Assembly: GCF_029223285.1 (NCBI RefSeq)
Contig: NZ_JARHUJ010000008.1
Coordinates: 248,001 to 312,000 of the forward strand
Origin: Paraflavitalea sp. CAU 1676
Lineage (GTDB): Bacteria > Bacteroidota > Bacteroidia > Chitinophagales > Chitinophagaceae
Reading direction: 5' to 3'
DNA: 64,000 bases
The position numbers and the translations under genes were made by a program. Position 1 is the stretch's first letter. Each line of letters starts with the position of its first letter. Positions 26,268 to 50,700 of the stretch are shown here, piece after piece. Below the pieces are notes generated by a model, which was not told where the DNA came from, searched no databases, and saw nothing but the letters and a program-made list of their open reading frames with translations.

Positions 26268-26549
26268 GTATTATACGGGTTTAGAGATTGATCGCCGGCC
26301 GTTAAGACGGTTGAGTGCCGGCAGGTGCAACAATAATAGGCTGCATTTTACATACTCCCTTGTTAAAGCCTACCCGAATGACGTAAAACCATGGTTCAAC
26401 TGTTCAAATCGCGTAGTGAACGGTACAGGATAGCTTCAATCCTTTAAGGGCGATATTTCAATGATTCGGTAAATCTTTCAGGCAGTTCACGCCTGTTTAG
26501 GTTTTATTCAAAGACAGATTAGGGCATCTTGCACCCACAATTTTCCATA

Positions 26550-27833
26550 ATGAAAGGAACACACAATAGGACAAGCGTTGTAGCGCTGGGAGTTGTTTGC
26601 CTGGCACTGCTGGCAACGGCCTGCGGAAAGAAAGATACACCTGCACAAGACGGGAAGATAGAGATTGTGCCCAAGGTAAGTGGCGTAGGAACACCTACAG
26701 GAGCAGCTACCACGAAAGTGATCGGCGCAGCAGGCGGATTTGTTACCAGTGCCGATCATTCCGTAACGATTACAATACCATCAGGCGCATTGAGCGCCAA
26801 TACCACCATTGGCATACAACCCATCATTAACACCAATGTGGGAGGGAAAGGCACTGCCTACAGGCTTACGCCGCATGGGCAGCAGTTTGCCAAACCGGTA
26901 GAGATCGCCATGGCCTATCTGCCTTTTAAAGATTCAATGGCATTTCCTTTAACCGCTGTACTGTCTTTTCAGGGTGATGACGGCGTATGGCAGATGCCTT
27001 CGGGAAGTGTGGTAGATACAACGGCCAAAGTGGTAGAATACAGCACCACGCATTTCAGCGATTGGGCGATCATGGAGCGCGTAAGCCTGAAGCCGGTCAC
27101 CGCAACACTTGGTGAAGGCGAGAAACTTAACATCGTAGCATTGATCTATAATGCGGTACCCAATCCATGCAATTGTATGGACGATCTGCTGCAGCCGCTG
27201 CCGCCACGTGGTAATCCTTACCCGGTAGGTGAGCCTGCCGCACTACCGGTAAGGTATATCAAGAACTGGAAGCTGGTTGGCCCGGGCTCTATCGATCGCA
27301 CCACCGGCAATAGCGTGGAGTATAAAGCACCTGCTTCGATTCCCGGCTTTACTACAGCCACCGTAGTGATGCAGTTAAACGGCGATGACCAGGGTAAATA
27401 CCTGTTGTTGTCAAATATCAAACTGACCAGCGAAAGCTGGATTGAAATGAGTGTTGCAGGCGGCGCCAAAGTAATGCATCCGGCTACACCGGCCGTAAAG
27501 AGCGGTGATACTTATATATTATCGGGTGGCGACGAAGGCATTGGCAATTACATCATGATGAAATGGGACGGCGGTGTAGGCACACACGCCTGGGAGCTCG
27601 GGAATGGAAATTCCTGGCACTATATAAAACCGGGCATGACCTACGGAAGCAGGTGGATAGATATTTCGATACCCGAAAGACCGGAGAAAGTGAGTGGCGG
27701 AGGAGTTACGGTAACAAGAATTAGCGGAGGCTGGATAGAAGGAACATTTACGGTATCCAGAGCCGGGTATGATGACTTTACCGTTACCACATCTGCCAGC
27801 GGATCGTTCAAAGCAAAACTAATCGGGAATTAA
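26550..27833 (+). CDS. ZU5-like domain lipoprotein
   Basis: 427 residues from the ATG at 26550. Signal peptide with lipobox LLATA-C (Cys at about 26). A ZU5-like module follows: AAGGFVTSADHSVTITIPSG, then ALSANTTIGIQPI, and PVEIAMAYLPF, and later TTHFSDWAIME. These are the marks of ZU5 domains in secreted Bacteroidota proteins. The remainder is beta-rich with a Cys pair (NPCNCMDD) and no recognised domain. Predicted surface or periplasmic lipoprotein, ligand unknown. A TTG start at 26529 exists but would place residues before the signal peptide. It is followed by a terminator. Confidence 0.8.
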   Translation: MKGTHNRTSVVALGVVCLALLATACGKKDTPAQDGKIEIVPKVSGVGTPTGAATTKVIGAAGGFVTSADHSVTITIPSGALSANTTIGIQPIINTNVGGKGTAYRLTPHGQQFAKPVEIAMAYLPFKDSMAFPLTAVLSFQGDDGVWQMPSGSVVDTTAKVVEYSTTHFSDWAIMERVSLKPVTATLGEGEKLNIVALIYNAVPNPCNCMDDLLQPLPPRGNPYPVGEPAALPVRYIKNWKLVGPGSIDRTTGNSVEYKAPASIPGFTTATVVMQLNGDDQGKYLLLSNIKLTSESWIEMSVAGGAKVMHPATPAVKSGDTYILSGGDEGIGNYIMMKWDGGVGTHAWELGNGNSWHYIKPGMTYGSRWIDISIPERPEKVSGGGVTVTRISGGWIEGTFTVSRAGYDDFTVTTSASGSFKAKLIGN

Positions 27834-28178: not shown

Positions 28179-28266
28179 AGCGCACTTCCAGCGACACCAT
28201 AGCGATCATTTAGCGACCTTACAGCGACATTATAGCGACCTTATAGCGATATTACAGCGATGCTGC
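28179..28266. repeat. Array of eight degenerate 11-bp units (AGCG core)
   Basis: Eight units each exactly 11 bp start with AGCG: AGCGCACTTCC, AGCGACACCAT, AGCGATCATTT, AGCGACCTTAC, AGCGACATTAT, AGCGACCTTAT, AGCGATATTAC, AGCGATGCTGC. The first five or six bases are conserved and the tail varies (consensus AGCGAYMTTAY). No reading frame fits. The spacing is about one helical turn. Confidence 0.85.
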
Positions 28267-28279
28267 TCCCAGTTACTTC

Positions 28280-28334
28280 CTGATCTGCTTCTGGTCTGCC
28301 CCTGATCACCGCCCGGTCAGGGCCTGGTCAGACA
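28280..28334. repeat. Adjacent array of five 11-bp units (CTGRTC core)
   Basis: CTGATCTGCTT, CTGGTCTGCCC, CTGATCACCGC, CCGGTCAGGGC and CTGGTCAGACA, again with an exact 11-bp period, 13 bp after the AGCG array. The motif differs from that array but the period is the same. Confidence 0.75.
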
Positions 28335-28352
28335 TGGATTCAATAAAAAGCA

Positions 28353-28381
28353 GAAACCCCGCAGTGCAGCTGCAGGGTTTC
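28353..28381 (-). terminator. Intrinsic terminator of the VOC gene
   Basis: GAAACCC / GGGTTTC with an inner GCAG/CTGC pair. Read on the minus strand it is followed by CTTTTTATT. It lies 48 bp beyond the stop of the gene ending at 28429. Confidence 0.75.
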
Positions 28382-28428
28382 TTATGACATGTCGTACTAA
28401 AGGTTCTTATGGACCTTAACCAGTGGCG

Positions 28429-28917
28429 TTATGGATTATTAAAAGCAGCTTCCAGCTCGTCGATCTCCAGTTTGGTCATTTCCATCATGGCGCGCATGGC
28501 GCTATCGGCTTTTTTGGTGTCCTTGTCCATCAGCATTTTGGGCAATTGAACTGGTGTCACCTGCCACCACAAGCCAAATTTATCTTTGAGCCACCCGCAC
28601 ATACTCTTCTCACCACCAGCAGAAAGTTTTTCCCAAAGCTCATCCACCTCCTCCTGCGTCTTGCAGTTCACAACAATCGAAACGGCCATGTTGAAAGTGA
28701 CCTGCTTACCGCCATTGAGGCAAAGAAATTCCTGACCATAAAGCTGGAAAGTGGAGGTGAGCACCGAACCCTTGGGTCCATTACCGACATCGCCCCAGCG
28801 AAGAATATCTCCGCGCTTCAAATTGTCTTTGAAAATGGAAGCATAGAAATCGACGGCTTCTTCCGCATTGTCATCGAACCACAAACAAGTGGTAAGTTTT
28901 GGATCGTTCTGTTGCAT
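28429..28917 (-). CDS. VOC-superfamily (PhnB / 3-demethylubiquinone-methyltransferase-like) protein
   Basis: 162 residues. KLTTCLWFDDNAEEAVDFYASIF is the start of the first beta-alpha-beta-beta-beta module, with LYGQEFLCLNGG closing it. The second module has MAVSIVVNCKTQEEVDELWEKL and the DKFGLWWQVTP strand. This is the PhnB-like glyoxalase/bleomycin-resistance fold, with paired modules forming a metal or ligand pocket. The usual first ligand His is not obvious, so catalytic activity is uncertain. Single gene flanked on both sides by 11-bp repeat arrays. Confidence 0.88.
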   Translation of the reverse strand: MQQNDPKLTTCLWFDDNAEEAVDFYASIFKDNLKRGDILRWGDVGNGPKGSVLTSTFQLYGQEFLCLNGGKQVTFNMAVSIVVNCKTQEEVDELWEKLSAGGEKSMCGWLKDKFGLWWQVTPVQLPKMLMDKDTKKADSAMRAMMEMTKLEIDELEAAFNNP

Positions 28918-29057: not shown

Positions 29058-29189
29058 ATGGTAGCGTACCTGCCTCAGCATGGTACGGAACTGGTACAGA
29101 ACTCCTACAGAACCCTTAGTGCTATAGAGCAGTCCCAGACAAGTCTTAGACCATTCCCAGGCAATACCCCGAAAAGTCCGTACCTGGTC
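29058..29189. repeat. Degenerate array with 11-bp period upstream of the VOC gene
   Basis: Twelve successive 11-bp windows share a loose pattern. Clearest are ATGGTACGGAA, CTGGTACAGAA, CTCCTACAGAA (29080-29112) and CCAGACAAGTC, TTAGACCATTC, CCAGGCAATAC (29135-29167). No frame in it looks coding. The remaining bases of the 29-kb gap (28945-29057 and 29190-29418) show no gene. Confidence 0.65.
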
Positions 29190-29418
29190 GGCGCCCATTC
29201 CGGTAAGCCCTTCGGCCAGCGATCTGCGGGATGAGCATGTGTAGGCGCTTTAAAGCCGATTGGGAGCCCTTGCGTGGGTGATTTCAAGGAATGTGAATAA
29301 TTGGCTGCCGAGAAGCTTGCGGCCTCTAATGAGGCGCTAATGCGTTTTGGCGGTGGTTGTCAATAGTCGACGAAGTGGGAAGTCGCAAAACGGTCCTCAC
29401 GGGGCTATATCGGTCCGT

Positions 29419-33619: not shown

Positions 33620-33835
33620 CGCCACAACCCACGCCCCCACGCATCCCCGCACGCCTACCCGCACCGCCAACCACTCCCTGCTCGCCACTTCCGCCCGCAC
33701 CTCCAAGCACTCCCCACTCGCCACGCATCCCCGCACGTCCACCCGCACAGCCAACCACTCCCTGCTCGCCACTTCCGCCCTCACCTCCAAGCACTCCCAC
33801 TCCCCACTCGCCACGCATCCCCGCACGTCCACCCC
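33620..33835. repeat. C-rich tandem repeat, 84-90 bp period
   Basis: The motif CGCATCCCCG occurs at 33641, 33725 and 33815. Between them the text repeats nearly unchanged (CCAACCACTCCCTGCTCGCC, ACCTCCAAGCACTCCC), giving about 2.4 copies of an 84-bp unit. The second copy has a 6-bp duplication. The plus strand is almost free of G and very rich in C. No homologous gene is visible, although several frames are open because stops are rare. Confidence 0.8.
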
Positions 33836-47742: not shown

Positions 47743-50700
47743 ATGAAGAGAATTTTATGCCTGATCACCGTATTGCAGCTGGTGGCGCTGTGCTCGATGG
47801 CCCAGGCACCGGCCCTGATGAACTACCAGGGGGTGGCCCGTAATGCTGTGGGCAACGCGTTGCCCAACAAGCCCATCAAGCTGCGTTTGAACATCCGTAA
47901 CGGATCGGCTGCAGGCAGCATCGTATATTCAGAAACAAGATCGGTCACCACCAACCAGGTGGGACTGTTCAATGTACAAATAGGAAGCGGTGGCGCTACC
48001 AATGTAAGTGGTACTGTTGCCGGCATCGACTGGAGCAACGGTCCCAAGTTCATACAAGTAGAAATTGATCCCGAGAACGGTACCGCATTTACGTCTGTAG
48101 GAGCTTCCCAGCTACTCTCTGTACCCTATGCCTTGTTTGCAGGGTCGGGCAATGCAGGCGGACCGGCAGGTGGAGATCTTACAGGTACTTACCCTAATCC
48201 GGCCATAGCGCCGGGCGCAGTAGTGAGCAGTAAAATTGCCAGTGATGCGGTAACGACGGCCAAAATTGCTGACGCCAACGTCACTACAGCGAAACTGGCT
48301 GATGGATCGGTAACGATGGCCAAGTTGCAGGATGGATCGGTAGTGACAGTGAAGCTGGCAGATAATGCGGTGACCACGCCCAAGATCGCGAACAATGCAG
48401 TGACCACGGCGAAGGTGTTGGATGGCAATATTACAACAGGGAAACTGGCAGATGGATCAGTATCGACGCCGAAGCTGGGCGACGGCTCTGTTACTACTCC
48501 AAAGCTCGCCGACAATGCTGTAACTACAGCCAAAGTAACGGATGCGAATATCACCTCAGCAAAACTGGCGGATGGATCAGTAACGACGCCGAAACTGGGC
48601 GACGGCTCTGTTACTACTCCGAAGCTCGCCGACAATGCTGTAACTACAGCCAAAGTAACGGATGCGAATATCACCTCAGCAAAACTGGCGGATGGATCAG
48701 TAACGACGCCGAAGCTGGGCGACGGTTCTGTTACTACTATAAAGCTCGCCGACAACGCAGTGACAACTGCCAAAGTAATGGATGCGAATATCACTTCAGC
48801 AAAACTGGCAGATGGATCAGTAACGACCGTCAAAGTACTCGATGCCAACATCACCACACCAAAGCTGGCCGACGGTGCAGTGACGATGGCAAAGCTCGAT
48901 CCCGGTATCACTTTCCCGCCAACAGGACCAGCAGGTGGCGACCTCGACGACACTTATCCCAACCCCACAGTGGCTGCGATCCGTGGCGTCAACGTATCGC
49001 CAACCCTGCCTTTGAACGGTCAGGTATTAAAGTTCAATGGCGTAGACTGGGCGCCTGCTGCCGGCGGTGGCGGCGGGTCACTCACGTTGCCTTATAATAC
49101 GATAGAAAATGATGCAAACACATTGTTCTCCATTACCAACAATGGCGATGGTACATCGCTGGAAGGTATCAACAATACGACCACTTCCAGCATCGCGGCC
49201 ATTCGCGGAGTCATCACCTCCACAGCCCCCGGCGGTTTCTCATCGGCTGTACGCGGTGCCAACAACGGTACCGGCGGACTGGGTATAGGTGTATGGGGAT
49301 CACAGAATGGCTCGGGTTGGGGCGTTTATGGTAATACGCCCAATGGCCTTGGTGTATATGGCAATTCAAGCGCCAACGGCTATGGAGTATATGCCAACAG
49401 CAATACCGGTATCGGCTTGCAGGCTACTTCCAACAATGGTATCGCCGCCAATTTGTCGATCTTTAACAATGCCAATAACAACAATGTACTTAATGCCAGT
49501 ACCGTAGGTAATGGTACAGTCATCAACGTAACGACAACTGGCAATGGTACCGGTGTATTTAGTTCTACCGGTTCAGGTTTTGGTGTGCATGGAATCGCCA
49601 GCTCGCAATCCTCGGCGGGTATTATTGGCGATAACACTGGCGCAGGTGAAGCGGTAGTAGGTCGCACAACTTCCGACATTGCAGGCGCTGTAGTAGGCCG
49701 CAATGATGGCGGTGGTTATGGCGTACGTGGTTTCATTGCCACCAACACCAGTAATACCGGAGTAGGTGTATTCGGACAGGTTGGATTGAACGGTAGTACC
49801 GGCCGCGCAGGTCTGTTTACCAATACCAACCAAACCAATACCGAAGCCAATATCCTGCAGGTAGAGTCCAACAGCAATGGTAATATACCCGACAATACCC
49901 TCGGCAATGCATCGTCCTTCTTCCTCGACAATACCAACAGTGTTGGTGCTGCAGTAAGAGCAGAGGTGAATACCATCTTCGGCAACTTCGGGGCTGCGGG
50001 CGTATTCGGTATTTCATCAGGAACCGGTGGTCGTGCAGGTCTCTTCTATGCATCCAACCCCGCCGGTAATGGCGCTTCACTCATATCGCTCACAGATGGT
50101 AATGGTAATGCTATCACGGCCAATGCCGGTAAAGATGGCAATGGAGTAGAAACCAATATCGATGGAGCTGGTACGGCCCTGTATGCCTGGGTGCCATCCT
50201 TCTCCGAGGGACGTGCAGGCAGGTTCGAGATCTTCAACGAAGACAATGACAATACCGCCGTCACCGTGAAAACAGTAGGTAATGGTACCGCAGGTGATTT
50301 CAAGGTAGATCGTACTACTGGTACATCTCCTGCTGTAAAAGGTGAAGTGAATTCCATCTTCGCCAACTTTGGTACCGCAGGTATATTTGGTGAGTCATCT
50401 GGTACAGGTGGCTATGCAGGTCTCTTCTATTCGTCCAACCCCGGTGGCAACGGTCCGGCCGTACTGGCCCTTACAGAAGGCAACGGCAACGGCATTACCG
50501 CCAATGCTGGTGGCACTGGCGATGGCGTAGAAGCCTCCTGCGATGGCAATGGAAATGCCATCTCTGGTTTCATCCCCAACTTCGGCACCGGTAAAGCTGG
50601 CCGTTTCGCCAACTTCAACAATGCCAACAGTCAGCCAGTTGTGCACGTTACCACAACCGGAACGGGATCTACGCTGCTCGTTAACCACCAGGGCGCATCA

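Follow-up and report, generated by a model that had tools for sequence, protein, structure and literature searches.

The locus and its repeats

The window, which is the whole stretch of 64,000 nucleotides that was analysed, corresponds to G000:C22:248001-312000 in a genome of 8.84 Mb (G000). Two genes converge on a tandem array, and the features at this site are as follows.

26529-27833, plus strand: lipoprotein-like gene, neighbour of the array
28179-28266, plus strand: inner array, eight 11-bp units of the form AGCG(A/C)...
28267-28332, plus strand: outer array, six more units that stay in the 11-bp register of the inner array; their sequence differs from it and is lineage-specific (CCTGATC/CCTGGTC type)
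28429-28917, minus strand: gene with a 3-dmu-9_3-mt domain, the other neighbour of the array
approximately 29060-29190, no strand assigned: third stretch with an 11-bp period, GGTACAGAACT and GTCCCAGACAA types, lag-11 identity 0.47

The preliminary description recorded eight exact 11-bp AGCG(A/C) units, and these are confirmed. Unit 1 starts with AGCGC and the other seven of the eight start with AGCGA. The inner array matches itself at 52 of 77 positions at lag 11 and at 45 of 66 at lag 22, a sum of 97 that compares with 35.5 +/- 5.8 and a maximum of 57 in 2000 dinucleotide shuffles. No gene was thought to read through the array, and indeed no ORF of at least 50 aa overlaps 28179-28266. The extent given for the repeat is correct for its eight units but not for the 11-bp periodicity, which runs on in register through the outer array (lag-11 identity 0.56 over 28270-28335). 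Outer arrays of the CCTGATC/CCTGGTC type also adjoin both other AGCGA arrays in G000. The opposite strand of the inner array is GGTCGCTATAA-like, which is the unit of the gene-linked type-A modules described below. Locally, the third stretch resembles related elements of genome G001 at their outer end, with alignment scores of 21-26 against shuffled maxima of 14-16.

A hairpin at 28350-28390 (AAACCCCGCAG...CTGCAGGGTTTC) separates the array from the converging gene and looks like a two-way terminator. A search of Rfam gave no match over threshold and two weak rnk-leader matches at this terminator. The idea that the window array is a relic keeping the leader of a gene is unsupported (alignment score 20 versus a shuffled maximum of 19). 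Elsewhere, the window holds a 120-bp repeat in three copies with a 93% match (48442-48827) and a composite C-rich tandem repeat with periods of 12, 36, 48 and 84 (33637-33834).

Arrays with an 11-bp period across the genome

Autocorrelation of all intergenic DNA at lag 11 had been proposed as a check. Averaged over all non-coding DNA, it shows only a faint rise at lags 11 and 22, and therefore local arrays had to be counted. The count covered 1.99 Mb (22%) of G000, consisting of C22:1-400000, C17:250001-650000 and the whole of C1, with a period-11 score of at least 48 of 88 as the cut-off. It identified 40 arrays in non-coding DNA and none in coding DNA. Shuffled non-coding segments yielded one such array in 20 replicates, so local lag-11 arrays are far commoner than in shuffled sequence. 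Any other lag between 5 and 40 gave at most 4 non-coding arrays, except for the harmonic 22 with 19. The arrays are placed between genes of all orientations. The window repeat is thus one of many 11-base arrays dispersed over a Bacteroidota genome.

About 25 of the 40 arrays match none of the linked units tested, and 2 of these lie upstream of related genes. The AGCGACCTTAT units are direct repeats; inverted repeats occur only among some other arrays, and some of the related ones are able to form hairpins. At G000:C22:43032-43120 and C17:427140-427228, inverted repeats of 11-bp units (GTAGATATCCC against GGGATATCTAC) make long hairpins possible.

Spread and spacing of the AGCGA unit

The AGCGA type occurs at three places in G000, with matches in four of the five genomes of its genus. 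An exact search of a collection of 84,980 genomes with the AGCGA core 19-mer found 26 stretches in seven genomes, all Bacteroidota. The carriers are Dawidia soli (Cytophagales), four Niastella species (Chitinophagales), Desertivirga arenae (Sphingobacteriales) and a Pedobacter (also Sphingobacteriales). The AGCGACCTTAT array is accordingly present in three Bacteroidota orders. Relatives had been named as the place where such 11-bp arrays ought to recur, and they are found there. The 19-mer stretches share a layout, in which [AGCGACCTTAY]n is followed by a junction unit and then by an in-register outer array whose sequence is lineage-specific.

The spacing of the units is kept while their sequence varies, as first described for the window array, which supports the earlier reading that selection or copying acts on a spacing near one helical turn. 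At 47 AGCGA loci (L058 was left out as a duplicate), the spacing is exactly 11 bp at 290 of 298 junctions; the copies are related, and these junctions are therefore not independent events. At the same loci, 862 of 3795 positions (23%) depart from the consensus of the unit. In place of 11-bp arrays, 10-bp arrays stand at some related genes, which is expected if one helical turn is what counts.

A partner gene with its own array

Several AGCGA arrays adjoin a gene encoding a protein of about 230 aa, which carries the N-terminal motif V.SK.YG.H.R..RGT. The window array is a member of a dispersed family with matching protein genes, which goes beyond what had been noticed before. With eight array-adjoining proteins (alignment A2) as the query, members were found in 7 of 147 family genomes (15 loci) and in 8 of 10 further genomes (19 loci). 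The copy number of intact proteins is low, at most 8 matches per genome. An 11-bp array lies upstream of the start codon at 32 of these 34 loci. The two exceptions, which the unit table omits, are L098, without a clear array, and L150, a gene fragment. The eight A2 proteins were found through their arrays and so are not independent evidence; after their removal, the count is 24 of 26. The base rate is 20 upstream arrays among 1358 ordinary ORFs of at least 150 aa, with the linked genes counted in. In a phylum-wide survey the protein is rare (3 of 395 genomes), and at the four survey loci outside G000 the 11-bp array is clear at L160 and L161, short at L163 and not outstanding at L165.

The scored tract begins 110-254 bp upstream of the start codon, and the gene lies 44-188 bp beyond a tract of 10- or 11-bp units. 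The interval between array and gene shows no enrichment of any canonical Bacteroidota promoter box. The orientation of the array relative to the gene is identical in 31 of 32 cases, and the linked array of Dawidia is inverted. Purifying selection acts on the proteins, with dN/dS of 0.08-0.34 in the 10 of 14 pairs that gave a finite value.

Protein clades differ in their units. On the gene strand the unit is GGTCGCTATAA, GGTCTCTATAA, GGTCTCGATAA, GGTCCGTATAA or GCTCTATAA-like, plus further variants, mostly on the skeleton GGTCnCnATAA. Protein identity correlates with unit similarity (Mantel r 0.54, p 2e-4). The correlation does not prove recognition, because DNA segments that lie next to each other co-descend, and the link between unit and clade may be plain co-descent. 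What the data do show is that gene and array occur as a pair, that unit types follow protein clades, and that the unit spacing is kept.

The two parts are also associated at the level of genomes. The AGCGA pattern occurs in 3 of 147 family genomes, and these 3 belong to the 7 that have the protein (hypergeometric 6.7e-5, a hand calculation); in the same search, the reversed control pattern had three matches within G000 as well (2 forward, 1 reverse). Niastella soli and N. yeongjuensis have arrays and lack the protein at E 1e-6.

The protein family

Searches of Pfam, NCBIfam, PHROGs and PDB sequences with the family proteins gave no significant family match, and single queries of the viral, plasmid and phage collections gave no relatives. 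The structure predicted from three sequences is of moderate quality (pLDDT 70.9, pTM 0.60) and consists of a hairpin at the N-terminus, helices and a beta-sandwich at the C-terminus. Fold comparison of this model returned generic beta-sandwich matches only and no known DNA-binding fold.

Wider relatives emerge from the census and from profile comparison. Each of the census arrays at C22:183653 and C17:427140 precedes a gene whose N-terminal motif, GTVG/GSVG, is related. Profile comparison joins the main family to a flavobacterial GTIGDVTFYK type and the C17 protein (Prob 97-98%), and it joins the C22 type to this group over 58 residues (Prob 95%). Two C22-type genes (L013:2917-3456 and L248:12495-13043, on G000:C22 and C1) carry 10-bp tracts of the ATGCCACGGA type just before the start codon. 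One flavobacterial-type relative (L163:1501-2241) has a Tox-URI2 match below the cut-off (E 0.042).

A proposed gene-plus-operator module and its solo copies

With moderate confidence, we explain these observations by a two-part module of array and protein gene, in which the protein binds the array cooperatively on one DNA face and solo copies of the array are dispersed; the window array is, with the confidence given to this explanation as a whole, such a solo copy. The protein would occupy adjacent units from the same side of the double helix, its conserved basic N-terminal hairpin perhaps making the contact, and 5-10 copies could assemble into a cooperative filament or wrap. Bound to the linked array, the protein may control its own gene. 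At solo arrays, it may be loaded at chosen points of the chromosome, or the solos may be leftovers of a mobile module. The pattern suggests a protein family reading DNA with matched landing strips across the chromosome.

Solo copies are scattered through intergenic DNA, some of them as remnants of modules that lost the gene. Some solo arrays are accompanied by decayed gene pieces, and Pedobacter solos retain the leader around the start codon. The site in G002 orthologous to the window has both neighbour genes and no array; this genome lacks AGCGA matches and encodes a single protein, which is of a different type. Sites in G001 (L256) and G003 (L257) were ruled out as empty sites because the lipoprotein neighbour of the window array is not shown there, so only the G002 site (L258) serves as one. 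In 28 of 33 cases, a solo outer array is closest to the linked module found in the same genome. This comparison omits solos from genomes that lack a linked protein (L067, L070, L071, L075), a cut-off locus (L069) and gene-holding or repeat loci (L048, L050, L055, L058, L062, L063, L065, L068, L076, L078); among ties, L083 and L072 were scored as misses and L077 as a match.

The same dispersal could be that of a mobile repeat family resembling REPs or MITEs. The gene product, or an enzyme encoded elsewhere, would copy the elements, the arrays would be their recognition ends, and binding would serve dispersal and not the host. Besides the usual best match of solos to the module of their own genome, this reading gains from L047 and L060, at different places in G001, which have an identical internal deletion of the gene. 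Two full modules at separate places (L135 and L145) are 88% alike over 891 bp, and Dawidia solos at many places have a largely common order of unit variants. However, Pfam, NCBIfam and PHROGs give no transposase family match, the right ends of element copies vary, the viral, plasmid and phage collections (one query each) hold no match, and intact proteins remain few per genome. We regard a mobile repeat as a serious but doubtful alternative.

It is improbable that the array acts as RNA, somewhat in the manner of a type III toxin-antitoxin system, its 11-nt units being transcribed into a leader or small RNA that is bound by the protein or neutralises it. The upstream position and nearly fixed strand of the array relative to the gene would suit such an RNA, as would the hairpin-capable inverted repeats among some related arrays. 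The existence of 10-bp arrays, the placement of arrays between genes of all orientations, the inverted linked array of Dawidia and the lack of an Rfam match over threshold argue against it. Known type III toxin-antitoxin repeats are far longer than 11-bp units, and no match to a toxin family over the cut-off was found in the proteins scanned. A Rho rut-like spacing was dropped by reasoning only, because units such as AGCGACATTAT are without YC. A neutral minisatellite, arising by slippage and drift without function, would account for the real drift of the units, but it is very improbable given that a single period dominates the sampled genome, length changes are few, the gene partner recurs and the same unit occurs in three orders.

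Comparison with known systems

DUF6266 (PF19781) is a Bacteroidota protein family of uncharacterised function. It has a short N-terminal similarity to the array-linked protein type A7 (P 2e-4), and lag 11 or 22 is the strongest of 24 lags in 14 of 33 regions upstream of its genes. On the other hand, an 11-bp signal is not the leading one in over half of the members tested, and no PF19781 match over the cut-off was found in the main-family proteins scanned. That DUF6266 proteins are plain relatives of the main family is not established (profile comparison, Prob 1.8%). Upstream of one DUF6266 gene in another Bacteroidota genome (L182) lies a near-perfect array of six GCTAACTATAT-type units.

We tentatively consider, as quite possible, a Bacteroidota protein superfamily, not yet described, with the N-terminal module G(T/S)(I/V)G..T(F/Y)..S...Y..R. 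It would include the SKRYG type, the flavobacterial GTIGDVTFYK type and perhaps DUF6266. Each paralog would read its own helically phased 10/11-bp array, located beside its gene and at numerous places on the chromosome, so that one genome would hold several parallel and mutually insulated systems for DNA coating or site clustering.

The preliminary description knew of no described feature of this type, and searches of open-access full text likewise turned up neither the arrays nor the protein family, nor any mention of DUF6266. If the protein reads the arrays, each such genome has several matched protein-DNA codes, with perhaps more than 100 target arrays (40 were found in 22%) that are seemingly nowhere annotated. 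They would form a natural set for learning how recognition shifts with an 11-bp unit. The finding would also add a new class, be it of mobile repeats or of chromosome-organising proteins.

Two known systems offer analogies. For type II plasmid partition by ParR/parC, PMC9426499 gives 11-bp repeats for R1 and 10-bp repeats for pB171. The likeness is one of layout, with 10/11-bp direct repeats upstream of the gene for a small protein, which in ParR/parC reads them, and with repeats that differ by family; here, direct repeats of about one helical turn precede the gene at the 32 of 34 loci. The protein differs, since searches of Pfam, NCBIfam and PDB sequences gave no ribbon-helix-helix or other family match and the model combines a hairpin with helices and a beta-sandwich. 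The arrays differ as well, being chromosomal, many and dispersed, with no match in the plasmid collection (one query). In the REPIN/RAYT system, according to PMC3116915, every RAYT stands next to a repeat type of its own. REPs are palindromes with a Y1 transposase. Dispersed intergenic repeats, several flavours per genome and a dedicated gene beside each flavour are common to both, and here a flavour is dispersed and also stands beside its own gene, although about 25 of the 40 census arrays have no identified partner. Unlike REPIN/RAYT, the family shows no Y1 (HUH) transposase in Pfam, NCBIfam or PHROGs, and the units are mostly 11-bp tandem repeats instead of short palindromes. Sequence searches place the module in neither system; by analogy, it may work somewhat like parC/ParR or REPIN/RAYT.
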